Shown here piece after piece: positions 12,258 through 31,973 of a DNA stretch of 64,000 nucleotides. Where the stretch lies: positions 124,001 through 188,000 of the forward strand of contig NZ_ADVZ01000003.1 of assembly GCF_000178995.1 (NCBI RefSeq), given 5' to 3'. The DNA is from Afipia sp. 1NLS2. GTDB taxonomy: Bacteria > Pseudomonadota > Alphaproteobacteria > Rhizobiales > Xanthobacteraceae. The notes beneath the pieces are model-generated. The model worked only from the letters and a program-made list of their open reading frames with translations. It was not told where the DNA came from and did no database searches. How positions within the stretch are numbered: the first letter of the stretch is position 1; every line of letters starts with the position of its first letter. The translations under genes were made by a program, and so were the position numbers.

Positions 12258-12259
12258 GC

Positions 12260-12460: not shown

Positions 12461-12590
12461 TTTTCTTCTATTATCGTACGCCTCAAGGAATGCCCGGGGA
12501 GGGGTAAAACTGGCCCCGCGTGGCTGGACATGACGCGCCAGCCTCTCTATAAACCGGCGCGCTCCCCTTGGATTTTGTCCCGGGAGCAAT

Positions 12591-12666: not shown

Positions 12667-12753
12667 TTTTCCCGATAAACGCCAAATGGTTGTTGAATTT
12701 TTCACACCAGTTTAGTGGCTGGCGCAGTCTCTCGGGGCGTGCGAAAATGGGCC

Positions 12754-13116: not shown

Positions 13117-13217
13117 CCGGCGCTCCAGCGCCGGAGCGTTGACGCTCGGCCTCGTTGAGGACGCGCGTCGTATCGGGTCGCTTCGGCGGCTCATCAGACG
13201 TTTCGAGGATAAACATC

Positions 13218-15067: not shown

Positions 15068-18000
15068 TTGCGCGCCTCATCGCCTGGTCGGCACGCAACC
15101 TGCTGCTGGTGCTGTTCGGCACCGGCTTTGCGGCTGCTGCCGGAATCTACGCTCTAGCTCATCTGCCGCTGGACGCCATTCCTGACCTCTCCGATACGCA
15201 GGTCATTGTCTACACGGAGTATCCGGGGCAGGCCCCGCAAGTGGTTGAAGATCAGGTGACCTATCCGCTCGCCACGGCGATGCTCACCGTGCCGAAATCC
15301 AAGGTTGTGCGCGGCTTCTCTTTCTTCGGTGTTTCCTTCGTTTATGTGATTTTCGAGGACGGCACCGATATTTACTGGGCACGCTCGCGCGTTCTTGAAT
15401 TCCTCAATGGCGCCGCGTCGCGCCTGCCAGCGGGTGTGACACCGGCCATCGGTCCGGACGCTACCGGCGTCGGCTGGGTTTATCAGTACGCCGTCACGTC
15501 CAAAGAGCTGAATCTGGCCCAGACACGGACCATTCAGGATTGGAATCTGAAATTCGCATTGGCAAAGGCCGAAGGGGTCGCCGAAGTCGCGAGCGTTGGC
15601 GGCTTCGTCAAGCAATACAATGTTGTGCTCGATCCTCAGCGTATGCGCGATCTTGGCATCAGCATTCAGAAGGTTCGAGACGCGATCCGGGCCAGCAATG
15701 CCGATGTCGGCGGGCGCACGGTCGAACTGTCAGAGTTCGAATACGTGATTCGAGGCAGAGGATATCTAAAAAGCATCGACGATCTCGGTGACATCGTCCT
15801 CAAGACGGATAAGGGGACGCCCGTATTACTGAAGAATGTTGCCAGGGTCGAACTGGGGCCGGACGAGCGTCGCGGCATTACCGAGTTAAACGGTGAGGGC
15901 GAGGTCGCAAGCGGCATCGTTCTGCAACGCTTTGGGATGAATGCGCTCGATGTTATCGAGAATGTCAAAAAGCGTTTCAAGGAGATTGCGACCAGCCTGC
16001 CTAAATCAGTCGAGATCGTACCGGTCTATGATCGATCGAATCTGATCTATGCGGCCATCGCCACCCTCAAGCATACGCTGATGGAAGAAAGCCTCGTCGT
16101 GGCGTTGGTGTGCATCGTGTTCCTGTTGCACGTTCGCAGCGCTCTGGTTGCTATCGTGATGTTGCCGGTCGGTGTGCTGATGGCCTTCGGGGCGATGAAG
16201 CTGCTGGGCATCGGGTCGAACATCATGAGTCTCGGCGGCATCGCCATTGCCATAGGAGCCATGGTGGATGCTGCCATCGTCATGATCGAGAATGCCCACA
16301 AACATCTCGAACGTGCGGAGCCGGGAAAACCGCGGGTTGCCATTCTAATTGATGCAGCCTCCGAAGTCGGCCCGGCGCTGTTCTTCAGCCTTCTGATCAT
16401 CACCGTGTCCTTCATGCCGATTTTCACATTGGAATCGCAGGAGGGGCGTCTCTTCGGCCCGCTCGCCTTCACCAAGACCTTCGCGATGGCGGCGGCCGCG
16501 TTGCTGTCCGTCACGCTGGTGCCGGCGCTCATGGTGCTTTTCGTTCGCGGGCGGATTATTTCCGAGCACAAGAACCCGATCAACCGCTTCCTGATCTGGG
16601 TTTATCGTCCCATCATCAATGCCGTACTGCGTGCAAAAGCCTTCGTTGTTCTGCTGGCACTCGCCGTTCTCGTGGTGACAATCTGGCCTGCGCGTCAGCT
16701 TGGCACAGAGTTCATGCCGAACCTCAATGAGGGCACGCTGCTTTATATGCCCACGACGCTGCCCGGTATTTCGGTCACCAAGGCCGCTGAGTTGATGCAG
16801 ACGCAGGATCGGATCATCAAGTCGTTTTCGGAAGTTGCATCGGTCTTCGGCAAGGCGGGCCGCGCCTCCACCTCGACGGACCCCGCACCGACCGAGATGT
16901 TCGAGACTATCATCAACCTCAAGCCGAAGGAGCAGTGGCGGCCAGGCCTCACGATTGATGGGCTGATCGCCGAAATGGACAAGGCACTACAATTTCCGGG
17001 CGTGTCGAATGCCTGGACGATGCCGATCAAGGCGCGCATCGACATGCTCTCGACCGGCATCCGAACGCCCGTCGGTGTCAAGGTGATCGGCACCGACCTT
17101 GCCGAGATCGATAGGCTCGCCAAGCAGATCGAGCAGGTATTGCGGGCGGTGCCTGGAACATCATCCGCATATGCCGAGCGCAGTCTCGGTGGTTACTATC
17201 TGGAAATTACGCCCGATCGTGCAGCGCTCACGCGCTATGGGATTCTGATGCAGGATGTCCAGGACACGATTGCAATGGCCCTTGGAGGGCAGGCAATCAC
17301 GACGATGATTGAAGGCCGCGAGCGATTCACGGTCAACATGCGTTATCCGCGCGATTTGCGGGATAATCCAAAAAAGATCGCAAGTGATGTCCTCGTGCCT
17401 ATGCCGGCTGGTGGGACTGTCCCGCTCGGAGAGGTTGCCACGGTCCAGCTCACGCGTGGTCCAAGCATGATCCGCACGGAGAATGCCCAGCTTGCGACCT
17501 ATATCTACGTCGATATCCGCGACCGCGATCTTGGTGGCTACGTCGCAGATGCACGACATGCAGTTCAGGCCAGCGTTCAGTTTCCGCCGGGCTACTATGC
17601 AATTTGGAGCGGCCAGTACGAGTATCTGGAACGGGCAACAGCCCGGCTGAAGATTGTCGTGCCTGCGACGCTCCTGATCATCTTTCTGCTGCTCTACCTT
17701 AATTTCAGGTCGGTCACGGACACGATGATCGTCATGCTCTCGCTGCCGTTCTCGCTGGTGGGCGGGCTCTGGCTCATGTGGTGGTTGGGGTTCAATCTTT
17801 CAGTCGCTGTCGCCGTGGGCTTCATCGCACTCGCCGGCGTCGCTGCCGAGACCGGCGTTGTGATGCTGATCTACCTTAATCATGCGCTTGCGGAGATGAG
17901 AGTGCGCTGTGCCTCCGAAGGGCGGGCTTTAAACCTGATCGATTTACGCGAGGCAATCATGGAAGGCGCGGTCGAGCGCGTCCGGCCGAAGATGATGACG

Positions 18001-18189
18001 GTGGTGGCCATCATGGCGGGACTGCTGCCGATCATGTGGAGCACTGGCACCGGCTCGGAAATCATGCAGCGGATCGCCGTGCCGATGATCGGCGGCATGA
18101 TTTCATCGACGCTCCTCACGCTGATCGTCATCCCGGCCATTTTCGGATTGGCCAAGGGTTTCAGATTGCCGCCCGGTCACTCTGTGTGA
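15064..18189 (+). CDS. cusA: Cu/Ag efflux RND transporter CusA
   Basis: A 1041-residue inner-membrane proton-driven pump of the heavy-metal-efflux RND class. Text close to CusA is seen in TM4 (GGIAIAIGAMVDAAIVMIEN), the pore domain (RIDMLSTGIRTPVGVKV, holding the first Met of the Met-cluster) and near the end (RVRPKMMTVVAIMAGLLPI). These favour monovalent Cu/Ag over Zn/Co/Ni (CzcA). The length is normal and no frameshift is seen. The start overlaps the cusB stop (ATGA). No outer-membrane channel (cusC) and no regulator gene lie next to it. Confidence 0.93.
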   Translation: MIARLIAWSARNLLLVLFGTGFAAAAGIYALAHLPLDAIPDLSDTQVIVYTEYPGQAPQVVEDQVTYPLATAMLTVPKSKVVRGFSFFGVSFVYVIFEDGTDIYWARSRVLEFLNGAASRLPAGVTPAIGPDATGVGWVYQYAVTSKELNLAQTRTIQDWNLKFALAKAEGVAEVASVGGFVKQYNVVLDPQRMRDLGISIQKVRDAIRASNADVGGRTVELSEFEYVIRGRGYLKSIDDLGDIVLKTDKGTPVLLKNVARVELGPDERRGITELNGEGEVASGIVLQRFGMNALDVIENVKKRFKEIATSLPKSVEIVPVYDRSNLIYAAIATLKHTLMEESLVVALVCIVFLLHVRSALVAIVMLPVGVLMAFGAMKLLGIGSNIMSLGGIAIAIGAMVDAAIVMIENAHKHLERAEPGKPRVAILIDAASEVGPALFFSLLIITVSFMPIFTLESQEGRLFGPLAFTKTFAMAAAALLSVTLVPALMVLFVRGRIISEHKNPINRFLIWVYRPIINAVLRAKAFVVLLALAVLVVTIWPARQLGTEFMPNLNEGTLLYMPTTLPGISVTKAAELMQTQDRIIKSFSEVASVFGKAGRASTSTDPAPTEMFETIINLKPKEQWRPGLTIDGLIAEMDKALQFPGVSNAWTMPIKARIDMLSTGIRTPVGVKVIGTDLAEIDRLAKQIEQVLRAVPGTSSAYAERSLGGYYLEITPDRAALTRYGILMQDVQDTIAMALGGQAITTMIEGRERFTVNMRYPRDLRDNPKKIASDVLVPMPAGGTVPLGEVATVQLTRGPSMIRTENAQLATYIYVDIRDRDLGGYVADARHAVQASVQFPPGYYAIWSGQYEYLERATARLKIVVPATLLIIFLLLYLNFRSVTDTMIVMLSLPFSLVGGLWLMWWLGFNLSVAVAVGFIALAGVAAETGVVMLIYLNHALAEMRVRCASEGRALNLIDLREAIMEGAVERVRPKMMTVVAIMAGLLPIMWSTGTGSEIMQRIAVPMIGGMISSTLLTLIVIPAIFGLAKGFRLPPGHSV

Positions 18190-19367: not shown

Positions 19368-20408
19368 TTATGGCTTCGCGTGACTGAAGTTGTCTTCCAT
19401 AAAGGATGCGTCGTCCGCATTTTGAGATGACGCCTCTACGTCATCAACGAATGTAATCGGATGCTGACGTTTACGATTGACGGTCAGGGAAAAGATGTCG
19501 AACCGGTTATAGTAGCCGGTGACGTCGTGGTATTGCTTGGGCTCCACGCAGCGGCTTAGGTCGAACTCGGCGTAGGCGATGCCTTCATCGTCTTGAAGAA
19601 AATCGCCGACAGGTGCTCCGGTGGGATCGACGAAGAAGCTCGCGGCGCGCGAGCTGCGATCGAGGGTGTCCGCGACCTTTGGATCTCGATCCACCAGGAA
19701 TTTTCGCATCGCTGAATCCATATATCCCGCGGTGTTCATTCCAAATGCCTTGGCTTCAAATGAATGCGCGCTGGAGCGAATGCGGTTGGCTTCGACATTG
19801 TTATAATTGGTGCCGTTGCCGGCAGGGCGGGTTGGCCATAAGGCGGGCCAGCTTGAAATATGAATCTGCTCGGCTTGCGCGATAAGAGCGTAGCGTGCCA
19901 GCGGGTTGGTATTCTCGCCGCAGATCAGTTGACCGACACGGCCGACCGGCGTTTCGACAACCTTGAGCCCGGCGCCATCGCCTGGAGCCCAGGTCAGCTT
20001 TTCATAAAACGTCGGAACCAGCTTGCGGTGATGGTTCAGAATGCCTCCGTCAGGCCCGATCATGATGAAGGAATTCCACAGCGCCCCCACGCTGGCCGGC
20101 GAGCTTTCGCTGATACCCATCGAAACGCAGACGCCAAGTGCTTTTGCCTCGCGCCGCAAAGCGGCGATCTCGGGGCCGTTCGCGGACACCGACTGGTTCG
20201 CCATGAGCGAGAACAGATCGTGGTTTTCAGTAGGCGCCCACAGTCCTGACCACACCGGAAAAGCAGGAATAAAGGTTTCGGGGAACGCAATCAGTTGCGC
20301 GCCGCCGCGAGCGGCTTCCCGGATAATCGAAATTGCCTTGGCGGTGGTCGCGGTACGATCGAGAAAAACCGGCGCCGCATGTACGGCAGCGACTTTAACG
20401 TGCGGCAT
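19368..20408 (-). CDS. Nitrilase (carbon-nitrogen hydrolase family)
   Basis: A 346-residue cytosolic hydrolase of the nitrilase branch. The catalytic triad is clear: Glu44 (AFPETF), Lys129 (HHRKLVPT) and Cys163 (LICGENTNPL). The ENTNPLARY and SSWPALWP text around the Cys is typical of true nitrilases, which turn nitriles into carboxylic acids and ammonia, rather than of amidases. AAGGAAA lies before the ATG at 20408; a longer frame to 20498 has no such site. It is divergent from the ABC transporter genes across about 0.7 kb, which suggests joint control and a nitrile- or cyanide-related substrate. Confidence 0.9.
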   Translation of the reverse strand: MPHVKVAAVHAAPVFLDRTATTAKAISIIREAARGGAQLIAFPETFIPAFPVWSGLWAPTENHDLFSLMANQSVSANGPEIAALRREAKALGVCVSMGISESSPASVGALWNSFIMIGPDGGILNHHRKLVPTFYEKLTWAPGDGAGLKVVETPVGRVGQLICGENTNPLARYALIAQAEQIHISSWPALWPTRPAGNGTNYNNVEANRIRSSAHSFEAKAFGMNTAGYMDSAMRKFLVDRDPKVADTLDRSSRAASFFVDPTGAPVGDFLQDDEGIAYAEFDLSRCVEPKQYHDVTGYYNRFDIFSLTVNRKRQHPITFVDDVEASSQNADDASFMEDNFSHAKP

Positions 20409-21009
20409 CACCAATTTCCTTTTGTCGTGAGAGTTGTTGGGTGATTGCGGGTGAGCGCGACATGGCGGTCCTTCGCAAGTCGATTCAAAACGTCGCAAGT
20501 GGGCATGTGAGTGTCAATTGGCGTCTCGTGATCGCTTGATTGTATGCCGCTCGTAATCTGAAATCCTCGTGGTGCAAGGTCTCGGCAGGTATGCTTTGAT
20601 GATCTGTTCATGATCGCCCGTGGTTAGCTGGAGCGAATTGGATCCGGCAACCTGTGTTGTTATCCTTCGGTGCGCCATCACCTTTCACTCATGCCTGTTG
20701 CGCTGCACGTCAGTGTGTTGCGATTGCTCATGCATTTTCGCGGCGCAATAACCTCATTTCGAAGATGCAAGCCAAAGCCTGAGGCAGTGCGTCACACCCC
20801 CAATGTTGGGCGCCGCCGTCGTGTGGCATCGTGTTTCAAGTGCAGGATATTGCGCATATTTCGGCGCTGGAACGAGCTGCAATCATGCACGGTGTGGTGC
20901 AAAAAAGCCGATTGCGGTAGCTGCAAACCCATGGTCGCCTGCCATCCATAAAAGATTTCGCATTCCGGTAGCCATCGAGCATCCGGTTAAAGCGGACAGG
21001 GAGGGGACT
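20409..21009. promoter_or_regulatory. Non-coding divergent region between nitrilase and ABC genes
   Basis: About 0.6 kb without a convincing gene. Open frames here are short, rich in Arg/Cys/Pro and lack ribosome-binding sites. It must hold promoters for the nitrilase (minus) and the transporter row (plus), but I could not assign -35/-10 or sigma-54 elements with confidence. Its length suggests more than two simple promoters, perhaps including a regulator site. Confidence 0.4.
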
Positions 21010-21111
21010 GTGAACATCTTGTGGCTTCGCGAGAGGTCTTTTGTGCCGTCAACCGATGGCTGGCTGCGCGCGGTTTTCAATAAACCGCACGCTGACGGTG
21101 GCCGGCCATGA
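21010..21111 (+). CDS. Putative 33-residue leader peptide overlapping the permease start
   Basis: A GTG at 21010 follows the very strong site AGGGAGGGGACT. It opens a 33-codon frame (begins MNILWLRERSF, ends KPHADGGRP) whose TGA overlaps the ATG of the first permease gene (ATGA). The permease itself has no good ribosome-binding site of its own. This layout is what translational coupling to a leader peptide would look like. No family is recognised and the peptide has no long hydrophobic stretch. It could be chance, as the frame stays open upstream. Confidence 0.4.
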   Translation: MNILWLRERSFVPSTDGWLRAVFNKPHADGGRP

Positions 21112-21968
21112 TGGACACATTGCTGCTGCTGGCACTCAACGGATTGATCTGGGGCCTGATCATCGCGCTCATCGCGCTTGGCCTGTCGGTGATATTCGGC
21201 CTCCTTGACATCATCAACATTGCCCACGGCGACTTCTTCATGGTCGGCACTGTGCTGGCCTGGTTCGTGCTGGAAGCGACTGGAAATTTCTGGATCGGCT
21301 TTCTGATCGTGCCGTTGATCTGCTTCATTCTCGGTGCGTTGATCCAGCGCGTGGTGATTCAGCCGATCCGCGGCGCGGCCGCGCTGTCGATTGTCGCAAC
21401 CTTCGGCGTGTCGCTGATCCTCCAGGAAGTTGTGCGCATGACGTTCGGTGCGACGCCGCGCCGCATTCTGCCGCCGGTCGAAGGCACGCTGTCGTTGTTC
21501 GGAATTCAGTACGACATCTACCGGCTCTATGCCGCCGGTTTTTCGATCGCTGCCCTGGCTGCGTTCTTTCTTTTCCTGAACTACACGAAAATCGGAACAT
21601 GGATGCGCGCGGTGCGGCATGACCGGGAAACTGCGACCGCAATGGGAATCCCGGCGAAGCTTGTCTACGTTTTGACATTCGCCGTCGGGTTCGCACTTGC
21701 CGGTTTCGGCGGTGTCGTCGCGGCGCCCATCACCACGGTTGATTTCAGGGGTGGTGTAGACCTGCTGCCGGTGTGCTTCATCGCGGTCATTATCGGTGGA
21801 CTCGGAAACCTTCCGGGCACCGCCGCCGCGGCGATCCTTCTGGCGCTGATGGAAGGCATCATTCAAAGCGTCGCCAATCCCACCGTCGCGCGCATTTCTT
21901 CGTTGGTGTTGATGAGTGCTGTGTTGTTGCTGCGGCCACAAGGCCTGTTCAAGGGATTTGCGAAGTGA
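21108..21968 (+). CDS. Branched-chain amino acid/urea-type ABC permease (LivH-like)
   Basis: A 286-residue inner-membrane permease of the HAAT/LivH family. It has about eight helices and the family motifs LNGLIWGLIIALIALGLSVIFG at the start, INIAHGDFFMVG, and GNLPGTAAAAILLALMEG near the end. It forms the transport channel with the LivM-like protein encoded next, whose GTG start overlaps this stop (GTGA). It is the first clear gene of a five-gene transporter row. Substrates of this family range from branched-chain amino acids to urea, short amides and aromatic acids, and the exact one is not readable. Confidence 0.9.
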   Translation: MMDTLLLLALNGLIWGLIIALIALGLSVIFGLLDIINIAHGDFFMVGTVLAWFVLEATGNFWIGFLIVPLICFILGALIQRVVIQPIRGAAALSIVATFGVSLILQEVVRMTFGATPRRILPPVEGTLSLFGIQYDIYRLYAAGFSIAALAAFFLFLNYTKIGTWMRAVRHDRETATAMGIPAKLVYVLTFAVGFALAGFGGVVAAPITTVDFRGGVDLLPVCFIAVIIGGLGNLPGTAAAAILLALMEGIIQSVANPTVARISSLVLMSAVLLLRPQGLFKGFAK

Positions 21969-22990
21969 CGGCATCATCGAATGGTCGTATCGCAATCGAG
22001 CGCGGTGTCATGGTGGCATTCGCCGCGTTCCTGTTGACGGTGCCGTGGACGATCCCGGCGCTCATCAACAGTTTTTGGGTCAGCGTCATCGCCGAAATTC
22101 TGATCTGGTCGCTGTTCGCGGCCAGCGCGAACCTGCTGTTCGGCTATGTCGGATTGCTCTCATTCGGGCAGGCATTGTTCTTCGGCTTCGGGATGTATGG
22201 CGTCGCGATTGGCATCGATCAGCTCGGCCTGTCGTTCTGGCCGGCCTTTGGCCTTGGAATTGCAGCTTCGATGGCAATGGCGCTGGTCGCAGGCGTTTTT
22301 GCGGTTCGTCTGACCTGGCATTATTTCGCGATCATCACCGTCGTGTTCTCGCTGATTTTCTATTTCCTCGCGGTCTCCATGAAATGGCTGACCGGTGGCG
22401 ACGATGGCATCAACTTCTCGCTGCCGCCGACATTCTCCCTCGGCTCGGCGCAATGGAGTCTCGCGGACGCGAATTTCCAATACTATTTCATCCTTGCGAC
22501 GGTCGCGGTCTGCTTTTTGCTGATGCGTCTCGTGATCGGAAGTTCGCTTGGCAAGGCGTTCCTGGCGGTTCGCGAGAACGATGTCAGAGCTTCGTTGATC
22601 GGGTTGAATGTTTATCTGATCCGGCTGACAGCATTTGTGATGGCGGGCTTCTTGGCCGGCGTATCAGGAGTGTTGTTTGCATTCTTCGGCCGTTACGCCT
22701 CGGCCACCTACATGTTCTATCACGTCTCCGGTGAGGGGTTGGTGTGGGCCATTGTCGGCGGAGCGGGAACGCTGTTCGGGCCGGTTATCGGCACCACGGT
22801 TTTCATCATCATCCGGGAAGTCGTCTCGTCACATTGGGAGCATCACTCGCTGATTGTCGGCGTACTTGCGATTCTTGTGGTGATTTTCGCGCCGAAGGGA
22901 TTGGTCGGGCTGTGGCGCGAGACCGTCGATCGGATGATGGCGCCGCGCGCGGAGCGTGCCAGCCCCGCAAAAGTAAGGGTCGAGTCATGA
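21965..22990 (+). CDS. Branched-chain amino acid/urea-type ABC permease (LivM-like)
   Basis: A 341-residue permease of the LivM group with about ten membrane segments. Family text includes ASANLLFGYVGLLSFGQALFFG, FLAVRENDVRASLIGLNVY and GGAGTLFGPVIGTTVF. The GTG at 21965 was chosen because it overlaps the LivH-like stop and gives the usual length; the frame continues upstream only as a shadow of the neighbour. Its own stop overlaps the ATG of the ATPase gene that follows (ATGA). Confidence 0.9.
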   Translation: MTASSNGRIAIERGVMVAFAAFLLTVPWTIPALINSFWVSVIAEILIWSLFAASANLLFGYVGLLSFGQALFFGFGMYGVAIGIDQLGLSFWPAFGLGIAASMAMALVAGVFAVRLTWHYFAIITVVFSLIFYFLAVSMKWLTGGDDGINFSLPPTFSLGSAQWSLADANFQYYFILATVAVCFLLMRLVIGSSLGKAFLAVRENDVRASLIGLNVYLIRLTAFVMAGFLAGVSGVLFAFFGRYASATYMFYHVSGEGLVWAIVGGAGTLFGPVIGTTVFIIIREVVSSHWEHHSLIVGVLAILVVIFAPKGLVGLWRETVDRMMAPRAERASPAKVRVES

Positions 22991-23766
22991 GCGAAACGAT
23001 CCTTCGAACCGAAAATCTGACGAAGCGCTTTGGCGGTCTGACGGCGACGGACAATCTCAGCCTCAATCTGTCAGGCGGTCGTCTTCAGGCGATCATCGGG
23101 CCGAACGGTGCCGGCAAGACAACGCTGTTCAATTTGATTTCGGGCCTGTTGAGGCCTGACAGCGGCCGCATCTTCTTTCGGGACCGGGATATCACCGGTT
23201 TGCGGCCGCACGAGATCAGCCGGCTTGGCGTCAAGCGAACCATGCAGATCAAAAGCGTTTTCAATCAGCTCAGTGTGATGGAGAACCTGTGGATCACGCG
23301 GCAGGCCTCGCAGCGGTCTCTTCATCCGTTCCGCCCCGCCTCGCGAGACAACGCCACGCGCGAGCGCGTCGAGCAGGCTCTTGAACAGGTCGGCATGACT
23401 GCACTCGCCAATCGTATCGCGGGAACGCTGTCTTATGGCGATGTCGCGATGCTTGAGATCGGAATGGCTTTGATTTCCGACCCGAAGCTTTTGTTGCTTG
23501 ACGAACCAATCTGCGGAATGAGCCCCGCCGAGACCGAGCGGGCGGTTGAGAAGATTCGCGAGCTCGCACGCAGGATCGATATCATCATCATCGAACATGA
23601 CATGGAGGTGGTGTTCAACATCGCTGACCACATCACTGTGCTGGCGCAAGGCGCGATCCTCGTCAGCGGCGATCCCGATGAAATCTCCAATAACGAGCGG
23701 GTGCGCGAAGCCTATCTTGGCCGCCCGGAAGATGAAGATTACCTCGAGGAGGCGGCCCATGCTTAG
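22987..23766 (+). CDS. ABC transporter ATPase (LivG/UrtD-like)
   Basis: A 259-residue ATP-binding subunit. Walker A is GPNGAGKTT, Walker B is LLLLDEP, and the switch His lies in IIIIEHDM. The signature region reads LSYGDVAMLEIGMAL. This departs from the common LSGGQ but is of the type seen in LivG/UrtD proteins. The C-terminal extension (LVSGDPDEISNNERVREAYLG) is the LivG-type tail. The gene overlaps its neighbours at both ends (four bases upstream, eight downstream), so the subunits are made together. Confidence 0.9.
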   Translation: MSETILRTENLTKRFGGLTATDNLSLNLSGGRLQAIIGPNGAGKTTLFNLISGLLRPDSGRIFFRDRDITGLRPHEISRLGVKRTMQIKSVFNQLSVMENLWITRQASQRSLHPFRPASRDNATRERVEQALEQVGMTALANRIAGTLSYGDVAMLEIGMALISDPKLLLLDEPICGMSPAETERAVEKIRELARRIDIIIIEHDMEVVFNIADHITVLAQGAILVSGDPDEISNNERVREAYLGRPEDEDYLEEAAHA

Positions 23767-24457
23767 CCTCCATAATGTTCACGTCCATATCGGCAAGTTG
23801 CATATCCTCCAGGGTGTCAATCTTGAGATCAAGCCGGGTGAATCGGCGGCGCTACTGGGACGCAATGGTGTCGGAAAAACCACGACGTTGCGCGCGATCA
23901 TGGGATTGGCTGCCAAGAGCAGCGGCTCGATTGAGTTCGACGGCACTGACCTTTCCGGTATGGCGCCGCATAAGGTGCCGCGCACCGGCATCGGCTATGT
24001 GCCTCAGGGTCGCGGCATCTTCCCCAATCTGTCGGTGATGGAGAATCTCTGCATCGGGCTTCCCGGCAAGCGCGATACCGAGCGGGAGGACTATGTCTTT
24101 ACCTGTTTCCCGCGGTTGAAGGAGCGCATCAAGCAGGCTGGCAATACGCTCTCGGGCGGCGAACAGCAGATGCTCGCGATTGCCCGGTGCCTGATGATGC
24201 GGCCGAAGCTCATTATTCTGGACGAGCCGACCGAAGGCATCATGCCGCTACTGGTGTCGCAGATCAGGCGCGAAATCTACCGCATCAATCAAAGCGGGGT
24301 ATCGATCCTGCTGGTCGAGCAGAATGTCGAGACCGCACTCAAACTTTGCCCGCGTGTGTTCCTCATGGAAAAGGGCACTGTCGTTTATTCCGGTACGTCG
24401 CACGAATTGAAATCGCAGACCTCGATCGTGCACCGTTATCTTGGTCTGTCCCGTTAG
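23759..24457 (+). CDS. ABC transporter ATPase (LivF/UrtE-like)
   Basis: A 232-residue second ATP-binding subunit. Walker A is GRNGVGKTT, the signature is LSGGEQQMLAIARCL, Walker B is LIILDEP followed by TEGIMP, and the switch His is replaced by Gln (LLVEQNVE), as is usual in LivF. The ATG overlaps the end of the LivG-like gene by eight bases. The binding-protein gene follows after 24 bases. Confidence 0.9.
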   Translation: MLSLHNVHVHIGKLHILQGVNLEIKPGESAALLGRNGVGKTTTLRAIMGLAAKSSGSIEFDGTDLSGMAPHKVPRTGIGYVPQGRGIFPNLSVMENLCIGLPGKRDTEREDYVFTCFPRLKERIKQAGNTLSGGEQQMLAIARCLMMRPKLIILDEPTEGIMPLLVSQIRREIYRINQSGVSILLVEQNVETALKLCPRVFLMEKGTVVYSGTSHELKSQTSIVHRYLGLSR

Positions 24458-24481: not shown

Positions 24482-25759
24482 ATGGCCAAAAAACTTACGC
24501 GCCGCAGCTTCCTCGAATGCGCGCTCGCAGGCGGCGCAGCGGCGGGCACCGCTAACCTTACAATCATGAGGGATGCTTTCGCGCAAGCATCCGGTCCGAT
24601 CGTCATCGGTCATCATTGCGATTTGACCGGCGTGATTTCGTCTTGGGGCGTGTGGCATGACAGATGCGCACGCGCTGCCGTCGATATCATCAACCAGGGT
24701 GGCGGCATTGCGGGCCGCAAGGTCGAGCTTGCGACGGAAGATACCGAATCCAATCCGGCGAGCGGTGCTCGTAAACTACGAAACCTGATCCAGCGCGCCA
24801 ATGCCGAGTTTATCATCGGCTCGGTTCACTCCGGCGTCATGCTGGCCGCGATCCCGATCGCGTCCGAACTGAAGACCATTTATTTCTCGAATGGCGAGGC
24901 AACCGAGGCGACGGGCTCCAAGGGCACCCGTTATTCGTTCCGCACCGGCACCGATACTTACTCGATTGCTGCGGCGAGCATGCCGTGGTGCGTCGAGAAC
25001 TTCGGCAAGACCTGGTCGATCATTTACGCAGATTATGCCTGGGGCCAGAGCACCAATCAGGAATCCCGCCACTTCATCGAAAAAGCGGGCGGCAAGATTC
25101 TCAACAGCATCGCGGTGCCGCTCGATACCAAGGACTTCGTACCTTATCTGGCGCAGATTTCCGCGGACACCGAGGTGTTGCTGCCGGCCTTCATCGGCTC
25201 GCTGTCGCTCGGCTTCTATACCCAGGCGAAGAGCATGGGCCTCGACAAGAAGATGAAGATGTTCTCGTCGTCGGCGAGCATCGAATCGATCGCGCCGGAC
25301 GACATTCAGGGTGCGGCCGAAGGCGTCTATTTCTTCGAGAACTTCCCGCGCATGCTCACGTCGAAGAATGACGAGTATCACAAGGAGTTCAACAAGCGGC
25401 TCAATATCGACGATGTCGATGCGCGCCAGATCGGCGGAACGGCGGTGATGGACAAGAGTCATTGCTGGCAGGCGTGGGAAGATATCTTCGCGCTCAAGCA
25501 AGCCATTGAGAAATCCGGCTATAAGACGCGCAAGGATGTCGAAGGTGTCATTCGGGTGCTTGAAGGCATGGAGATGAAGAATTCTCTCGGCCATCCGCAG
25601 GGCGACAAAATGATCCGCAAGGAGGATCATGCCGGCATCATGGATTGCTACATCAGCCGCGTCGTCAATGGCAAATTGACGTTGCAGAAGAAGGTATCGA
25701 AAGAGGACCTTCTGAAAAACATGCCTGTGCGTCACAACCTGTCGGCAATGCCGGTGTGA
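24482..25759 (+). CDS. Tat-exported ABC substrate-binding protein (type I, HAAT family)
   Basis: A 425-residue periplasmic binding protein of the Leu/Ile/Val-urea-amide family (Peripla_BP_6). The N-terminus carries a twin-arginine signal (LTRRSFLE, then an Ala-rich hydrophobic stretch ending DAFAQA). The mature part begins PIVIGHHCDLTGVISSWG. GGAGAGAAG lies just before the ATG. It resembles urea/short-amide binding proteins (UrtA, AmiC-like) more than LivJ, but the ligand is uncertain. As last gene of the row it is followed by a strong hairpin terminator. The nearby nitrilase suggests that the imported ligand is a nitrile, an amide or a related acid. Confidence 0.88.
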   Translation: MAKKLTRRSFLECALAGGAAAGTANLTIMRDAFAQASGPIVIGHHCDLTGVISSWGVWHDRCARAAVDIINQGGGIAGRKVELATEDTESNPASGARKLRNLIQRANAEFIIGSVHSGVMLAAIPIASELKTIYFSNGEATEATGSKGTRYSFRTGTDTYSIAAASMPWCVENFGKTWSIIYADYAWGQSTNQESRHFIEKAGGKILNSIAVPLDTKDFVPYLAQISADTEVLLPAFIGSLSLGFYTQAKSMGLDKKMKMFSSSASIESIAPDDIQGAAEGVYFFENFPRMLTSKNDEYHKEFNKRLNIDDVDARQIGGTAVMDKSHCWQAWEDIFALKQAIEKSGYKTRKDVEGVIRVLEGMEMKNSLGHPQGDKMIRKEDHAGIMDCYISRVVNGKLTLQKKVSKEDLLKNMPVRHNLSAMPV

Positions 25760-25812: not shown

Positions 25813-26760
25813 TCAGATTTTGACAGTTGCCAGATCCCGCTCTTCGAGAGCCAGCGTTTCTCCGAGAAGAAACCGTTTGTCGGCTGCGAAGATACGGGCG
25901 ATGGCCTTCGCAGACCGGCTGATGGTTTTCAGGACATGCTGATCGCGCCCGACCGACATCCAGACAGGACGCAGGCTGCGGATCTCATCCGGCATGACCC
26001 GGAACAGTGCCTCGTTCTCCTCGCCGACAAAGGTCGGAAGCACGACGAGGCCGGCGCCTGCGATGGCTGCGTTGCGCTGCGCGATCACGCTGTTGCTGCA
26101 AAATGCCAGATGGGCGTTGGGCACGATCTGGTCGAGCCATTTGACCGATTCGATCGTGATCATTTCGGGGATGTAGCCGACATAGCGGTGCGACCCGAGT
26201 TCGGCTTGCGATGTCGGCAGGCCATGATGCGCACGGTATCGCTCCGAACCATAAAGATAGATCGCGGTCTCGCCGATTTGCTGGCTGATAAGGCCGGGAA
26301 TCTGGGGATCGAAAAAGCTCAGAAAGATGTCGGTCTCTTTCTTCAGGAGGTCGACGATGTGAGGATTGCTGAACAGTTCGATCCGGATGCTGGGGTCGTC
26401 GAGCGTGATATCCTGAATGCGGCGGGCGAGGTAGCCGCTCGCCAACCCTTCCATCGTGGCCACCCGGATGGCCCGGGTCTGGGTTTCGACATGTCCGATC
26501 GCCTCGTGCATCGCGGCGGCATGCACCTCCATCTGGCGAATATGTTCGAGCAGGTGCTCGGTCTCCGGCCGCGCGGTAATGCCGCGGTTGGAGCGGTCGA
26601 AGAGACGCCGCTCCAGGATCAGTTCGACATGCGCGATCCGCCGGGTCACCGTGGAGTGATCGACCTTCAGGATTTTTGCCGCGCTGTAGATGCTGCCCTG
26701 ACGCGCCACTTCGAGGATCACCCGAAGGTCGTCCCAGGCGAGCCTGTCCAGCTTAGACAT
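25813..26760 (-). CDS. LysR-family transcriptional regulator
   Basis: A 315-residue regulator with an N-terminal winged helix-turn-helix (about residues 4-62: DDLRVILEVARQGSIYSAAKIL, then DHSTVTRRIAHVE, LFDRSNRG) and a periplasmic-binding-protein-like sensor domain. AGGAG lies six bases before the ATG at 26760; a GTG two codons earlier is possible. It is divergent from the flavoprotein operon at 27037 and convergent with the ABC operon. It is therefore the likely activator of the flavoprotein genes and perhaps of the transporter. The inducer is unknown. Confidence 0.9.
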   Translation of the reverse strand: MSKLDRLAWDDLRVILEVARQGSIYSAAKILKVDHSTVTRRIAHVELILERRLFDRSNRGITARPETEHLLEHIRQMEVHAAAMHEAIGHVETQTRAIRVATMEGLASGYLARRIQDITLDDPSIRIELFSNPHIVDLLKKETDIFLSFFDPQIPGLISQQIGETAIYLYGSERYRAHHGLPTSQAELGSHRYVGYIPEMITIESVKWLDQIVPNAHLAFCSNSVIAQRNAAIAGAGLVVLPTFVGEENEALFRVMPDEIRSLRPVWMSVGRDQHVLKTISRSAKAIARIFAADKRFLLGETLALEERDLATVKI

Positions 26761-27036
26761 GGTCACTCCTTCCGCCGCGCCTCCGCCAACGAGCGCAGTT
26801 TGACGCCGATATTGCAGTTATCGAATCGACCGCGTCAATTACCGCAACTGCGGCAACCTCGATCAAGGCTGGCTGCACGCAAACACTGGCGGGTGCAAAA
26901 ACGCCTAATGCGAGGGCTGGCATACCACACTACTTTGCAAGCAAATCTGCGTTTTGGCCCTCAATTCTGTCAGCGAAGGGTTGGTGATGCAGATCGATAT
27001 GAGTTGACCGCTGAGGCGCGGCAAGAGACTTGATCG
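26761..27036. promoter_or_regulatory. Divergent promoter region, LysR gene / flavoprotein operon
   Basis: A 276-base intergenic region. It contains small inverted repeats, TTTGC-AA-GCAAA at 26934-26945 and a CCGCA-AC-TGCGG palindrome further upstream, either of which might be the LysR operator. Clear -35/-10 boxes were not assigned. The flavoprotein ATG has only a weak AAGAGA site. Confidence 0.4.
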
Positions 27037-28752
27037 ATGCAGATCATAACAACCGGCGTTGTCGTAGTGGGTGGAGGAGCGGCCGGATGCTACGCGGCGC
27101 TTGAGCTGTCCCGAAAGGGGATCGACTCGGTTATTGTCTGCAAGGGATTGGTCGGCAAAAGCGGCGCCTCACTTTTCGCGGGAAATCTTGTTCTCGGAGG
27201 CGGCCTGCTGGGCAACACACCGGAGCAGGGCCGCAACACTGCAGAATTCCTGATCAAGTATCATAATCAGTTTCTGATCGATCAGAACTGGGCCAAGCGA
27301 TGCGGCCAGTGGATCGAGAACGTCTACTATCCCGAACTTGAGGAGGCCGGTCTTTATTTCCGTCGCGACGACGATGGCAATGTCGTCACCAGCCCCGGCA
27401 AGATCAGAAGCATTGCGGCGAACATCCAGGGCAATTCCGGCGTGCCGTTCATGGATCTGCGTCGCAAGCAGGTAATGAAGGCAGGCATTCGCCGGCTTGA
27501 GGAAACGACCGTCACATCGCTACTGCACGGGGCCGACGGAAAGGTGTGCGGAGTCTTCGCCGTTAACTGCATGACCGGCGAATACAGCGTCGTTGTCGGG
27601 CGTGCTGTCATTCTTGCCACCGGCTATTCGGATCGCTTGCATATCCGTTCGACCGGCACGCGAGAGATGTCCGGCGACGGCATTGCGATGGCATGGCGGG
27701 CAGGGGCCAGCCTCGTCAATCTCGAAATGCAATGGTGGCACACCAACGATGTGGCTCACCCCCCGACCTGGCAGCGGGTGCAGATTTATCCCAACCCGGT
27801 TCTGGGGTCGGATCACTCGGCGCGGATGGTGAACTCTTCCGGCGAGGAGTTTTTCAACCAGCAGGTCGACGATCCGATGGCGTTCGGGCCCTACACCATT
27901 CAGCTCAAGAGGCTGGTGAAGCAGGTGCATGCCGGAAAGGCGCGCTATGACGGCGGCTATTACGCTGGTTTCGATCACGTCGATTTCAAGGAGATCGACG
28001 CTTACACGACATACGGCAAGCCATTCTACCAGCTTGGTCTCGACCCACGCAAAGGGCCGATCGAAACCGCCGTTACCGCACATTACCGGCAGGGCGGAAT
28101 CCTGGTCGATAACTCCAACATGCGCTCATCGGTGCCGGGACTTTATGTCGCCGGTGGTGTCGGCGGTCACAGTAACGGCTTGATCGCGCTGGTGACGTTC
28201 GATGGCAAGACCGTTGCGGACGGCATTGCTGCCGATTTCGACAAGCTCCAGTCCGGCAAGGTGCCTGACGATGAAATCGAGCGGGAGCGCCACCGTATCG
28301 AGGCGATGCTGATGATGGATGGAGACGGCTTCACGCCTGTCGTGGTGAAGGAAAAGATTCGGCGGGTCATGTGGGAGAAAGCCGGCATTGAGAAAAATCA
28401 CGCCGGTCTGACGAGCGCGCTGGAAGATCTCGATCGCATTCGTGCATCCGTGCTGCCGAACATGAAGGTCAAGAACCGGACGCGCGTCGCGAATTACGAA
28501 TGGCTCGATGCGATCGATGTTCACAACATGATCGACGCCGCGGAACTGGTCGTTCATTCGTCCATCGAGCGCCGCGAGAGCCGCGGCCCGTTCATGCGGA
28601 CGGATTTCCCCGAGACGGACAATGAGAACTGGCTGGCTGCGAATGTCATGATCAAGACCGACAATGGCTTCCGGTTTGAACGAAATCCTTATGAACTGAC
28701 GTTCTTCCAGCCCGGCTTTGCACGCCGCGACAACATGATGGTGCCGTGGTGA
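27037..28752 (+). CDS. FAD-dependent dehydrogenase, SdhA/FrdA/MfrA-like
   Basis: A 571-residue flavoprotein of the succinate dehydrogenase/fumarate reductase superfamily. The FAD-binding GGGAAGCYAALE lies at residues 12-23. In place of the SHT motif, whose His carries covalent FAD in classical SdhA, it has SGASLFAG (42-49), so FAD is probably non-covalent. The usual HYxMGGI reads HYRQGGI, and the C-terminal FAD/capping motif is YVAGGVGGHSNGL instead of HGANRLGG. The enzyme is thus a divergent member and may not act on succinate. No signal peptide is seen, so it is cytoplasmic. The stop overlaps the iron-sulfur gene. Confidence 0.85.
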   Translation: MQIITTGVVVVGGGAAGCYAALELSRKGIDSVIVCKGLVGKSGASLFAGNLVLGGGLLGNTPEQGRNTAEFLIKYHNQFLIDQNWAKRCGQWIENVYYPELEEAGLYFRRDDDGNVVTSPGKIRSIAANIQGNSGVPFMDLRRKQVMKAGIRRLEETTVTSLLHGADGKVCGVFAVNCMTGEYSVVVGRAVILATGYSDRLHIRSTGTREMSGDGIAMAWRAGASLVNLEMQWWHTNDVAHPPTWQRVQIYPNPVLGSDHSARMVNSSGEEFFNQQVDDPMAFGPYTIQLKRLVKQVHAGKARYDGGYYAGFDHVDFKEIDAYTTYGKPFYQLGLDPRKGPIETAVTAHYRQGGILVDNSNMRSSVPGLYVAGGVGGHSNGLIALVTFDGKTVADGIAADFDKLQSGKVPDDEIERERHRIEAMLMMDGDGFTPVVVKEKIRRVMWEKAGIEKNHAGLTSALEDLDRIRASVLPNMKVKNRTRVANYEWLDAIDVHNMIDAAELVVHSSIERRESRGPFMRTDFPETDNENWLAANVMIKTDNGFRFERNPYELTFFQPGFARRDNMMVPW

Positions 28753-29744
28753 ACCTGCAGATCGACGCGCGGAGCATCGGAAAGGTCGAAAACTCGGACG
28801 GGTTGCTGGCGCGCAATACGCGGCTCAATTTCGGCGATCCGGTCCACGTTCGTGTTCGCAGGTTTGATGCCGAACACCCCGAACAGTCCGAATTCGAAAG
28901 CTTCGTTGTTCCTTACGACACTTCGATGCGGGTGCTGGATGCGCTGAATTACATCGCGGAGAATTTCGCGACCGATCTGGCGTATCGCTGGCTGTGCGGA
29001 ACGAAGATGTGCGGGACTTGTGCGGTCAGGATGAACGGTCGCGAGGTGCTGGCTTGCTGGGAAAGCGTCGAGCCCGAGATGACGATCGAGCCGCTGCGGA
29101 ATTTACCCGTCATTCGCGATCTGGTTGTCGACCGCAGTCCCTACGAAGCGCGTGTGGCAAAGTTCGAGCCGTGGCTTGAGCGCCCCTCCGATTATGCCGG
29201 CTTCCCGGAGCCGTTGTCCCACAAGGACATGAAGAATGCCTCGAAGGCGCTGGATTGCATCAGTTGCATGTCGTGCTTTTCGGCTTGCCCGGTTGTCGGC
29301 CTTGGCGGCTTGACGAATTTTGCCGGGCCGGCGCCCCTGGTCCAGCTTGCTCAAACCGCACTCGATTCCCGGAACGATCCGGCCAAGGTGGCGCGCGCGC
29401 TCGAGCACGCAGGCATTTTCAATTGTGTGTCTTGCTACAAGTGCGAAGAGGCCTGTCCGGCGAAAATTCCAATCGTCACGCGGATCATCGAGCCGCTGAA
29501 GGCAAAGACAGCCGCGCTGGTGCCGCACGCGGCGCGACACTCGCTGGCCTTCAAGACGATTATCGCTTCGCGGGGGCGGATCGATCCGAGCGAACTCGTC
29601 CTGCGCGTACAGGGGCCGAAAGTGCTGCTGCAAATCGTCCGTGCCTGGCGATTGCTGGTGCGGGGCAAGATCAATCCGTGGAAAACCCTCTTCGGGAAAA
29701 GCCCGGGCGCAGCGAAAGCCGCGTCCCGCATCCTCGATCAGTAG
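28746..29744 (+). CDS. Iron-sulfur subunit, SdhB/MfrB-like
   Basis: A 332-residue electron-transfer subunit. The N-terminal [2Fe-2S] site uses C84, C89, C92 and C104. Two C-x2-C-x2-C-x3-CP clusters follow (C171-C181 and C227-C237). In classical SdhB the second of these lacks one Cys and holds [3Fe-4S]; here all four are present, so two [4Fe-4S] clusters are expected, as in type-E (Sulfolobus-like) enzymes. A C-terminal extension of about 90 residues is longer than in E. coli SdhB. Start: two GTG codons in a row at 28746/28749 overlap the flavoprotein stop. Confidence 0.88.
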
Positions 29745-29755
29745 AAGGCCGCATC

Positions 29756-30622
29756 ATGAAGTTTGCGTATTATCCCGGCTGCTCGGCGAAAAGCACATGT
29801 GCAGAATTGAACGTCGCGTTGCGCAAGGTCGCGGTCGCGCTCGATCTGCAATTGACCGAACTTGAATCGGCAACCTGCACCGGCGCGCGGGAACTGCGGG
29901 CCATCGATCCCGTCGGTTTTTTGACGCTGAATGTCCGGATTCTCGCACTCGCAGAGCAGCAAGGACTGCCGTTGATGACGGTCTGCAACACCTGCACGCT
30001 CAATCTGATCGATGCCAATGCCACCTTCGCGGAAGACAAGAATCTTGCCCGGCAGGTGAATCAGCGGCTCGCGGAGGAAGGCCTTGAATACAAGGGTACG
30101 ACCCGTGTGACCCATTTCCTGTGGATGTTGTTCGAAGATATCGGCAGCGAGCGACTGCAGAAGATGGTGGTCAATCCTTTGACTGGAATGTCCGTGGCGG
30201 CCTTCTATGGATGTCACATCACTCGGCCGCCAGAGAAATATGGGTTTATCGATTCACGCAACAACCGTTCGCTGGAGCAGCTTTCCGAGCTTCTTGGCTG
30301 CAAGCCGGTGGATTATACTGGCCGCACCGAATGCTGCGGTTTTCATACTGCCGCGCATGACGAGCGCATCGCGATCAAGCTGACCGGCCAGCATATCCAG
30401 TCTGCCAAGACCAACGGCGCGCATGCGATGGTGACGCCGTGCCCGCTCTGTCATACGGTGCTCGATAGTTTCCAGAAGGAAATCGAGAAGGATGCCGGGA
30501 AGAAACTCAATATGCCGGTGCTTCATTTGCCCCAACTCGTAGGGTTGGCGCTTGGCATGTCGCATGAAGAATTGCGCCTCGATAAACACGTTATCTCGAC
30601 CGAAGCGCTGCGGTCGCTTTGA
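29756..30622 (+). CDS. CCG-domain subunit, HdrB/SdhE-like
   Basis: A 288-residue protein with two CCG modules as in heterodisulfide reductase HdrB, GlpC and the SdhE/MfrE subunits of type-E quinone oxidoreductases. The C-terminal module is complete (C153, C193-C194-G, C229-x2-C232). The N-terminal module has C9, C41 and C77-x2-C80 but a Thr at position 42 in place of the second Cys. It should hand electrons from the iron-sulfur subunit to quinone or to a thiol/disulfide. AGAAGG lies upstream of the ATG, 11 bases after the previous stop. There is no classical SdhC/D membrane anchor in the operon. Confidence 0.87.
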
Positions 30623-30950: not shown

Positions 30951-31973
30951 ATGAAACGACGGACGGGACTGGCCTTTGCAGCGCTGCTGCTTTTCGGACT
31001 GCCAATGGGATATCTGGCAGCCGCGGGGCTGCATGATCTCGATGCCGTTCGGGCAAAATATCGCCGGCCCGCCACGATCCCTTTCCCTGACGACAATCCC
31101 TATTCCAAGGCGAAGGCCCACTTAGGGAAAATGCTGTTCTTCGACCCGCTGCTGTCCGGGTCGCGCAAGCATTCGTGCTCCTCGTGCCATGTGCCGGCCA
31201 AGTCATGGGGCGACGGGTTGCCGCACGCGATCGGCGAAGATCCCGCAGGGATGGAAATCCGTACGCCGACCCTGATCGATATCGCGTTCGTGGATATCCT
31301 TGGGTGGGATGGAAAGTTTTCCGATCTGGAATCGGTGACCTTCGGGCCGCTGACGAGCCCGCAGAACATGAACATCACCGAACGCGAACTGGTGCGGCGG
31401 CTGCGCGCGCTGCCACGTTATACCGCGGCCTTTGCCAAGGCGTTTGGCGACAAGCACGTCACGCGGCGGCGCATCGAACTGGCGATCGCAACCTATGAGC
31501 GCACCATTGTTGCGGGCGAAGCGCCGTTCGACCGCTGGATCATGGGAGACGAGAGCGCGATTTCCCCGCAGGCCAAGCGCGGGTTCGCCTTGTTCAATGG
31601 CAAGGCGCACTGCTCAAGCTGCCACAGCGGGCCTTCGTTCACTGATGGATCGTTTCAGGATATCGGCTCTGCGACCGGCAATGATATCGGGCGAGGCCGA
31701 TTGTTTCCGACTTCCGAGAAGCTGCAATACGCCTTCAAGACTCCGACATTGCGTGATGTCGCGGACCGCGGACCGTATATGCATGACGGTTCGGTCGCGA
31801 CGCTGGAAGGCGTGATCGAGCTTTATAATAAAGGCGGCATCGATCGTCCGAGCCGCTCGCCCTCGATCAAGCCTCTTGGACTGACGGCAGCGGAAAAAGC
31901 GGAGCTGATCGCTTTTCTCAAGACACTCTCGGCGCCCGCGGTCGAAGCGCACTCACCGAAGCTGGCCAAGTAA
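30951..31973 (+). CDS. Di-haem cytochrome c peroxidase / MauG family protein
   Basis: A 340-residue exported di-haem protein. A signal or membrane segment covers about residues 6-25. Haem c motifs are C76-S-S-C-H80 and C221-S-S-C-H225, placed as in the bacterial cytochrome c peroxidase/MauG family. The tail has FKTPTLRDVADRGPYMHDGSVATLEG, which is typical of this family. It may reduce H2O2 with electrons from a periplasmic cytochrome or cupredoxin, or act as a MauG-like modifying enzyme. A cupredoxin gene lies 1.6 kb downstream. The ribosome-binding site is weak. Confidence 0.9.
   Translation: MKRRTGLAFAALLLFGLPMGYLAAAGLHDLDAVRAKYRRPATIPFPDDNPYSKAKAHLGKMLFFDPLLSGSRKHSCSSCHVPAKSWGDGLPHAIGEDPAGMEIRTPTLIDIAFVDILGWDGKFSDLESVTFGPLTSPQNMNITERELVRRLRALPRYTAAFAKAFGDKHVTRRRIELAIATYERTIVAGEAPFDRWIMGDESAISPQAKRGFALFNGKAHCSSCHSGPSFTDGSFQDIGSATGNDIGRGRLFPTSEKLQYAFKTPTLRDVADRGPYMHDGSVATLEGVIELYNKGGIDRPSRSPSIKPLGLTAAEKAELIAFLKTLSAPAVEAHSPKLAK

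Follow-up and report, generated by a model that had tools for sequence, protein, structure and literature searches.

A conserved and unusual complex II-like gene trio in Afipia sp. 1NLS2, with a CCG subunit and linkage to importer and, in some genomes, nitrilase genes

What does a complex II-like enzyme act on when the residues for succinate and fumarate are gone, and where do its electrons go? This question is raised by three adjacent genes at positions 27037-30622 of a 64,000-nucleotide stretch of Afipia sp. 1NLS2 DNA (contig NZ_ADVZ01000003.1, positions 124,001 to 188,000 of the forward strand), which we call the window. They encode a flavoprotein (FP), an iron-sulfur subunit (FeS) and a subunit with two CCG modules (CCG). 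A preliminary description of this stretch had proposed a substrate other than succinate or fumarate, and the lost arginines of FP, including a change of arginine 286 to tyrosine, support this. The trio is a real, conserved and unusual branch of the complex II-like enzymes. Our preferred reading, to which we give an even chance, is that it would form a cytoplasmic, quinone-linked dehydrogenase resembling the type-E enzymes (SdhABE), in a catabolic and perhaps nitrile-linked module. The Arg286-to-Tyr change, a conserved linkage to importer genes and sister clusters without the trio are additions to the preliminary description.

The three genes and their distribution

The FP gene (27037-28752, plus strand) encodes 571 residues with an SdhA/FrdA fold and the Pfam domains FAD_binding_2 and Succ_DH_flav_C. 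The FeS gene (28746-29744, plus strand) starts with GTG and encodes 332 residues, with the Pfam domains Fer2_3 and Fer4_8 and a C-terminal extension of about 80 residues. The HdrB/SdhE-like, double-CCG subunit of 288 residues is encoded at 29756-30622 on the plus strand, within a longer mechanical open reading frame (ORF) at 29255-30622, and matches the Pfam domain CCG in two stretches. The last 7 bases of the FP gene are shared with the FeS gene, and the CCG gene starts 11 bases past the end of FeS, so the trio reads as a single operon. The ORFs, the Pfam domains and 12 invariant Cys bear out the earlier assignment of an SdhA-like protein, an SdhB-like protein with two four-Cys clusters and an HdrB-like double-CCG protein.

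A scan of a genome collection with FP found 37 loci; 16 of them are close (64-89% identity; L042-L057), and the remaining 21 are distant (23-37%). The three genes lie side by side in 17/17 relatives, which are the 16 close loci and one locus at 50% identity (L039). Their order is FP-FeS-CCG in 16 of the 17 and FeS-CCG-FP in L047, a Ramlibacter metagenome-assembled genome (MAG). Some collection records and G-numbered genomes are identical assemblies, so they are not independent. An assembly artefact was ruled out, as the trio is whole in Afipia sp. Root123D2 and Bradyrhizobium sp. dw_411.

The host genome is 3.97 Mb. FP was matched at an E value of 1e-50 or better in 7 of 101 sampled relatives, and these seven include 5 of the 29 genomes of the same genus. 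A search of 398 genomes of the phylum gave at least one match, the window's own genome; three first-look candidates per genome were scored, which makes 1/398 a lower bound. Carriers of close FP relatives include Bradyrhizobium, Pseudolabrys, Rhizobium and two betaproteobacterial MAGs. In the first of two trees (see below), the FP of L047 groups amid alphaproteobacterial sequences (support 98/99), a position that points to horizontal spread of this rare and patchily distributed trio. One MAG copy of the flavoprotein gene (L057:3332-4981) has a single in-frame stop, which is either a sequencing error or the mark of a dead copy.

Residues and phylogeny of the flavoprotein

The FP alignment contained 17 sequences, L057 being omitted for its in-frame stop. 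At the place of the FAD-linking His of SdhA (FAD, flavin adenine dinucleotide), FP reads GKSGASLFAG. It has HYRQGGI, which includes R351, where the family has HYxMGGI, and GHSNG replaces HGANRLGG, the loop of R399 in E. coli SdhA. The alignments thus confirm all three motif changes that had been noticed before. H242 and H354 of E. coli SdhA align with H235 and H349 of FP, so both substrate-site histidines are kept, and R286 aligns with Tyr286. We assume here that H242, R286 (the catalytic arginine), H354 and R399 have these substrate-site roles in E. coli SdhA. H235, Y286, H349, R351 and H378 are invariant in 17/17 FP sequences, and the FAD-linking His and both arginines are gone in all 11 family rows tabulated. 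The eight compared rows with QFHPT all also have Arg-Asp at the place of R286, H(Y/F)xxGG and HG(A/S)NR. Judging by these alignments, the loss of succinate and fumarate chemistry in FP is well supported, and its FAD is predicted to be non-covalent.

The trio might be just another succinate dehydrogenase or fumarate reductase of the ordinary kind: its fold belongs to that superfamily, and FeS passes TIGR00384, the iron-sulfur family of these enzymes, with 179.6 bits against a cut-off of 88. However, the 11 tabulated rows have lost both arginines and the FAD His, and host contig 10 encodes a separate SdhA with normal motifs (HTVAAQGG, HYNMGG and HGANRLGS) together with SdhB. Two small ORFs before this sdhAB pair resemble SdhC and SdhD by eye. 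The preliminary description had raised the case of a host that lacks a normal sdh and uses the trio instead; this host has its own. We rejected an ordinary enzyme of this type on the motifs, the tree and the second host SdhA/SdhB, and consider it barely credible.

By sequence, the closest solved relatives of FP are M. smegmatis Sdh1, E. coli SdhA and methanogen 3'-phosphoadenosine 5'-phosphosulfate (PAPS) reductase, which are 22-24% identical to it in the fold comparison. The predicted FP model (pTM 0.83, mean pLDDT 75) matched SdhA/FrdA with a best Foldseek E value of 2.7e-34, and the best three VIA rows among the matches listed had Z scores of 38.8-40.0 and root-mean-square deviations of 3.4-4.1 over 489-526 residues. 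FP reaches no NCBIfam cut-off. Its best score was with TfrA (207 bits, cut-off 718), next came SdhA/FrdA (197, 567), and lower were the best NadB model (137, 528), MfrA (118.8, 1100) and AprA (NF005331; 102.1, 557). The host's other copy, L040, is 26% identical to FP and scores 500 bits on the TfrA model, so the FP clade is unusually divergent. L040 itself (G000:C7:247000-265000, positions 5422-13763) holds a second host FrdB/FrdA pair with fumarase halves, and UxaA-like and dehydrogenase genes named by eye. Its flavoprotein clusters with NT-26 and Methylobacterium plasmid copies that adjoin fumarases and sulfite exporters, and these genes perhaps serve the use of sulfo-organic acids.

Two trees were built, each with 11 of the 18 family flavoproteins. 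The first lacks host NadB and joins long branches; the second adds NadB and omits L058, L060, L065 and L070. Neither has named MfrA, TfrA or AprA proteins or PAPS reductase, and the NCBIfam scores stand in for MfrA, TfrA and AprA. In both trees, a branch supported at 100/100 sets the FP family off from the other rows, and the family stem is 2.5-2.9 changes per column long. The sampled SdhA/FrdA-like rows cluster apart from it in the first tree (93/91). In the second, SdhA with L064 and NadB (89/87), the FrdA-like rows (99/98) and the FP family join at one unresolved fork, and a 98/93 branch parts these three groups from PRK08275 and clostridial rows. On these trees, FP forms a separate, long-branched clade within the complex II superfamily. 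It falls in neither of the dicarboxylate subgroups sampled (SdhA/NadB or FrdA-like), although its order relative to them is not resolved and the long stem invites error. The preliminary description had allowed that FP might fall inside a clade of proven succinate dehydrogenases, and among the rows sampled this is not where it lies.

Another candidate for the FP reaction is sulfur chemistry at the flavin, as in adenosine 5'-phosphosulfate (APS) and PAPS reductases, which also lack the dicarboxylate arginines. The alpha chain of methanogen PAPS reductase (8a8o) is among the best solved matches of FP (101.7 bits, 24-25% identity, Z 38.7) and, like FP, is an SdhA-like flavoprotein that shows no HGANR loop when aligned. 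It differs from FP in all but those 24-25% of residues, and we know of no CCG partner for it. Against a sulfur enzyme, the AprA model score of FP is low, and the rows with an additional AprA match of 272-288 bits (L061, L062, L072 and L083) lie across the 98/93 branch from FP. No sulfur gene was seen among the flanking genes scanned, which are a part of all flanking genes. We regard this alternative as very improbable.

Iron-sulfur sites and the CCG subunit

In an alignment of 18 FeS sequences, 12 Cys are invariant in 18/18, in three groups: C84, C89, C92 and C104; C171, C174, C177 and C181; and C227, C230, C233 and C237. From this pattern we infer one [2Fe-2S] cluster and two four-Cys [4Fe-4S] sites. 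FeS aligns at residues 35-323 with PRK12577, an SdhB model, and at 38-317 with the iron-sulfur model of 8-methylmenaquinol:fumarate reductase (MFR). Since the models cover FeS to residues 317-323, the C-terminal extension is common to them. The second four-Cys site and the extension point to a place for FeS with type E. The best NCBIfam score of FeS was with TfrB (199 bits, cut-off 385), and the MFR iron-sulfur model gave 94.8 (cut-off 600). The strongest amphipathic segment in the trio proteins lies in the extension, at residues 289-306 (moment 0.67), and is a candidate membrane contact.

The C-terminal module of the CCG subunit is complete, with five Cys. In the N-terminal module, C9, C41, T42, C77 and C80 are found in 18/18 aligned sequences, with T42 at the place of a Cys, and an extra Cys15 is also invariant in 18/18. 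The best HdrB-like matches in other genomes of the order, 17 in number, all keep Cys42 and all lack Cys15 (this table omits five weaker second CCG matches, L023-L027). No FP homologue was found in the flanks of these 17 matches, read for up to 1.5 kb on each side, and they were therefore taken as Hdr-type genes. The solved relatives of the CCG subunit are methanogen HdrB proteins, with the same CCG fold at 30-34% identity and TM-scores of 0.86-0.89 (34% and 0.88 for the best). Its best NCBIfam score was with the MFR anchor SdhE (252.7 bits, cut-off 500), and it stayed below the cut-off of the HdrB model TIGR03288 (214.7 bits, cut-off 345.15). Foldseek also matched 9ojn, the EtfD protein, with an E value of 2.7e-7.

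EtfD, the mycobacterial oxidoreductase between electron-transfer flavoprotein (ETF) and menaquinone, offers a precedent for T42. According to the part of the EtfD cryo-EM study consulted (PMC13083937), Thr539 beside Cys538 takes the place of the Hdr Cys, the site cannot hold a fourth iron and a linear [3Fe-4S] cluster results. The same part describes a motif for this cluster in EtfD homologues from several phyla and proposes that the electron wire ends at menaquinone. C9, C41, T42, C77 and C80 of the CCG subunit correspond one-to-one with C503, C538, T539, C581 and C584 of EtfD, and the EtfD ligand His583 falls by position at Thr79 (C581-x-H-C vs C77-N-T-C). EtfD is thus like the CCG subunit in its module, in the Thr after the second ligand Cys and, for an aerobe, in an electron chain whose proposed end is quinone (PMC13083937). 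Unlike it, EtfD is a single membrane protein with heme that takes electrons from ETF.

The preliminary description had spoken of a Cys lost from one CCG module. The substitution stands; decay of the module was ruled out, because T42 is invariant in 18/18, Cys fills the place in 17/17 HdrB-like matches and the Thr matches the EtfD site as far as that study was consulted. Compared with EtfD, the CCG pair is probably a relay of a linear [3Fe-4S] and a noncubane [4Fe-4S] cluster, not a disulfide-cleaving pair. Because Thr42 matches the site of a linear relay cluster, quinone is favored over a thiol as the acceptor, where both had been left open before.

The trio could instead be a thiol/disulfide enzyme like TfrAB of methanogens, in which FAD would carry out an oxidation or reduction and the CCG subunit would provide the coupled dithiol/disulfide step. 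TfrA and TfrB give the top NCBIfam scores of FP and FeS, and the CCG subunit closely resembles methanogen HdrB in fold. TfrB fuses the FeS and CCG parts. The trio differs in that FeS and CCG are separate genes, one CCG module has Thr, the fumarate residues are lost and the scores are below cut-off. It differs also from HdrB, in which both modules are complete and the partners are HdrA and HdrC instead of SdhA/SdhB-like proteins. To our knowledge, coenzymes M and B are not known in these bacteria, which also speaks against such an enzyme. Hdr disulfide cleavage is described in the consulted part of PMC13083937 as using two catalytic noncubane clusters, whereas one module here has Thr for Cys throughout. 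We consider a thiol enzyme unlikely.

The nearest known layout is that of type-E SdhABE and MFR of Wolinella and Campylobacter. As described in the part of PMC2680327 consulted, these combine an SdhA-type flavoprotein, an iron-sulfur protein with two four-Cys sites and an HdrB-like CCG subunit without transmembrane domains; MFR has non-covalent FAD, as predicted for FP. In type E, as in the trio, the three subunits are encoded together, and the C-terminal extension of FeS is shared with the MFR iron-sulfur model. No transmembrane stretch was found in the three trio proteins (highest Kyte-Doolittle mean over 19 residues, 1.67). The preliminary description was right about this absence; since the type-E anchor likewise lacks transmembrane domains (PMC2680327, consulted in part), it is not odd by itself. 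MFR differs from the trio in several ways. FP lacks both dicarboxylate arginines and, by eye, a twin-arginine translocation (Tat) leader, and the trio scores far below the MFR cut-offs (118.8/1100, 94.8/600 and 252.7/500 bits). The CCG subunit has nine of the ten Cys of the type-E SdhE motif, the tenth place being T42. The type-E label given earlier therefore holds for the layout and not for the ten-Cys motif; with that motif incomplete and the succinate/fumarate residues absent, the trio appears to fall short of full type-E membership.

Linkage to importer and nitrilase genes

Upstream of the trio, the window contains a divergent LysR gene, a five-gene importer of the Liv/Urt type and a nitrilase gene. 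Flanking ORFs were chosen by homology or by GC content at third codon positions (GC3), and family scans were run on some of them. The ATP-binding cassette (ABC) importer lies on the plus strand and consists of a LivH-type permease (21108-21968), a LivM-type permease (21773-22990), LivG-type (22744-23766) and LivF-type (23546-24457) ATPases named by eye, and a substrate-binding protein (SBP; 24482-25759) of the urea/amide/amino-acid type with a twin-arginine-like leader, TRRSFLE, seen by eye. The LivM, LivG and LivF genes are mechanical ORFs whose true starts are probably later. The nitrilase-like enzyme is encoded on the minus strand (19368-20498); its best model is the Nit6803 family, below cut-off (200.8 bits, cut-off 502.6). 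Aligned to 3wuy, it has Glu-Lys-Cys by eye, which we take to be the catalytic triad.

Importer homologues adjoin the trio in 12/17 relatives (L052 and L054 are cut by contig ends). A nitrilase adjoins it in 6/17, clearly in L044, L045, L046 and L050; in L046 the nitrilase ORF begins 28 bases past the CCG ORF. Genes for a major facilitator superfamily (MFS) transporter and an aldehyde dehydrogenase (ALDH) adjoin the trio in 3/17 (L044, L045 and L047), and in L047 the genes run MFS-ALDH-FeS-CCG-FP head to tail.

The stronger linkage to the importer fits a type-E-like quinone-linked dehydrogenase for an imported amino acid, amide or hydroxy acid, with the neighboring nitrilase acting on something else. 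The SBP shows a weak likeness to urea, amide (AmiC) and amino-acid binders, its relatives of known structure fixing no ligand, and L039 has other Liv-type genes with no nitrilase match. On the other side are the nitrilase gene immediately 3' of CCG in L046 and the sister clusters described next, in which a related importer pairs with a nitrilase throughout. We consider this alternative possible but doubtful.

Within the family, 25 of the 391 genomes searched have a match to the importer SBP (E value 1e-100 or better). Twelve have an SBP at least 72% identical to that of the window, and the trio is adjacent in 10 of these; the contig of G587 begins inside livM, and G663 has no trio in 2.8 kb upstream. 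In the other 13, the SBP is 62-66% identical, the trio is in none of the stretches read and a nitrilase lies alongside in 13/13. These nitrilases fall into two types: four are near the window's (73-76% identity), and the other nine form a second type. Three of these 13 trio-less clusters (L087, L088 and L089) have genes for malonyl-CoA decarboxylase (MatA) and malonyl-CoA synthase (MatB) after the nitrilase gene. These were assigned in L087 by Pfam and NCBIfam (MCD, 357 bits; PRK07514, 830 bits against a cut-off of 558) and in L088 and L089 by 82-89% identity. The window nitrilase is 73-75% identical to those of L087-L089. If it shared their substrate, that would be cyanoacetate or a precursor, with malonate as the product. 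Six of 7 trio genomes encode malonyl-CoA decarboxylase elsewhere. The nitrilase and MatA/MatB genes of L087-L089, with a Liv/Urt-type importer and LysR, are a candidate cyanoacetate/malonate pathway in their own right.

Proposed function

In the quinone-linked dehydrogenase that we prefer, a substrate other than a dicarboxylate would enter through the ABC importer or the MFS protein and be dehydrogenated at the non-covalent FAD of FP, where H235, H349, Y286 and R351 are the likely site residues. Electrons would then pass from FAD to the [2Fe-2S] cluster, to the two [4Fe-4S] clusters in turn, to the CCG pair and on to quinone at the membrane surface. The CCG relay would consist of a linear [3Fe-4S] cluster, or another four-Cys cluster, and a noncubane [4Fe-4S] cluster, and amphipathic segments would hold the complex at the membrane. 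The trio would work with the ABC importer and, in some carriers, with the nitrilase as well. The likeliest chemistry may be oxidation of a small nitrile or its acid (e.g. NC-CH2-CH2-X) to an aldehyde, which ALDH would complete, the carbon ending as malonate; the nitrile substrate and the malonate product are put forward only tentatively. What the sequences themselves show is the gene unit, the conserved ligands, the lost dicarboxylate residues and the gene linkage; the types and order of the clusters, the quinone and the membrane contact are deduced from these.

A fully specified version of this scheme is improbable as a whole. In it, the trio would oxidize NC-CH2-CH2-X (X being NH2 or OH, thus beta-aminopropionitrile or 3-hydroxypropionitrile) to cyanoacetaldehyde, and ALDH and nitrilase would make malonate for MatB/MatA. 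Alternatively, the nitrilase would act first and the trio would oxidize beta-alanine or 3-hydroxypropionate to malonate semialdehyde. In either order, CCG would be a soluble SdhE-like protein with a hybrid pair, linear [3Fe-4S] and noncubane [4Fe-4S].

Several findings weigh against the preferred reading. A nitrilase is beside only 6/17 trios, and two of these matches are weak. In the genome of L042, the adjacent nitrilase, visible in L034, is 45% identical, and a copy at 75% lies about 100 kb away; in L048, only 82 residues match, at 37%. Although several contigs are cut short, L047, L043 and others have no nitrilase in the stretch read. Nitrilase homologues (E 1e-40 or better) occur in 37/101 relatives, so their presence by itself tells little and only adjacency counts. 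The MatA/MatB linkage is seen in 3/13 sister clusters, all of one genus and perhaps from one event, and not beside the related nitrilases of L090, L094, L150, L151 and L153. No malonyl-CoA decarboxylase was found in G192, one of the seven trio genomes. The aldehyde dehydrogenase matches many models at scores below cut-off. The FAD loops of FP are weakly modelled, and the invariant Cys15 might supply the ligand lost at Cys42, which makes the linear cluster uncertain.

If the preferred reading is true, the complex II superfamily in soil bacteria would reach beyond dicarboxylates, aspartate and sulfur nucleotides. The trio would also offer a soluble, separately encoded CCG subunit for testing the linear [3Fe-4S] cluster, which the consulted part of PMC13083937 reports for natively folded EtfD, and the Cys-to-Thr change could be tied to a switch from a catalytic to a relay cluster. 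The importer-nitrilase module may serve as an indicator of nitriles or beta-substituted propionates in soil. No literature on such a trio with a nitrilase was found among open-licence PMC articles, a search that leaves subscription journals mostly outside.

Regulator and other genes

The LysR-type regulator is encoded divergently at 25813-26766 on the minus strand, and a homologue lies upstream of FP in 9/17 relatives. Between it and the FP gene is an operator-like element of 29 bases, RCAC-N6-GTGCAAAAAC-N-CCTARTGC (26883-26911, plus strand). The element is recognizable in 6/6 aligned intergenic regions, four of which have single changes or a one-base insertion; these regions come from close relatives, and part of the conservation is shared descent. 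The pattern, which was built from those sequences, has one match in the window and none in 100 shuffles. It is plausible as a putative LysR operator.

Directly downstream of the trio, a MauG-like di-heme protein is encoded at 30951-31973 (TIGR03791, 320 bits against a cut-off of 444). It was rejected as a trio member, since none of the 22 loci compared has a homologue with at least 35% identity. Further upstream in the window are CusB/CzcA-type genes for heavy-metal efflux of the resistance-nodulation-division (RND) type (13544-18189), then a cytochrome b561-like gene at 18753. A second nitrilase-like gene of the host (L152, G000:C8:496583-497566) is 49% identical and lies near a LysR-like gene and weak ABC-ATPase-like ORFs. 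Six nitrilase matches contain in-frame stops (two in G153 and one each in G161, G201, G199 and G206), perhaps only at the match ends. The amidase of L055 was considered as malonamidase E2 and rejected, since that score (about 100 bits) is below those for probable amidase (137) and biuret hydrolase (116). Finally, four of the 16 close relatives are MAGs with SCN-prefixed scaffold names (L043, L044, L045 and L053), as in thiocyanate-reactor studies, and nitrile or cyanide compounds in such reactors might select for the trio cluster.

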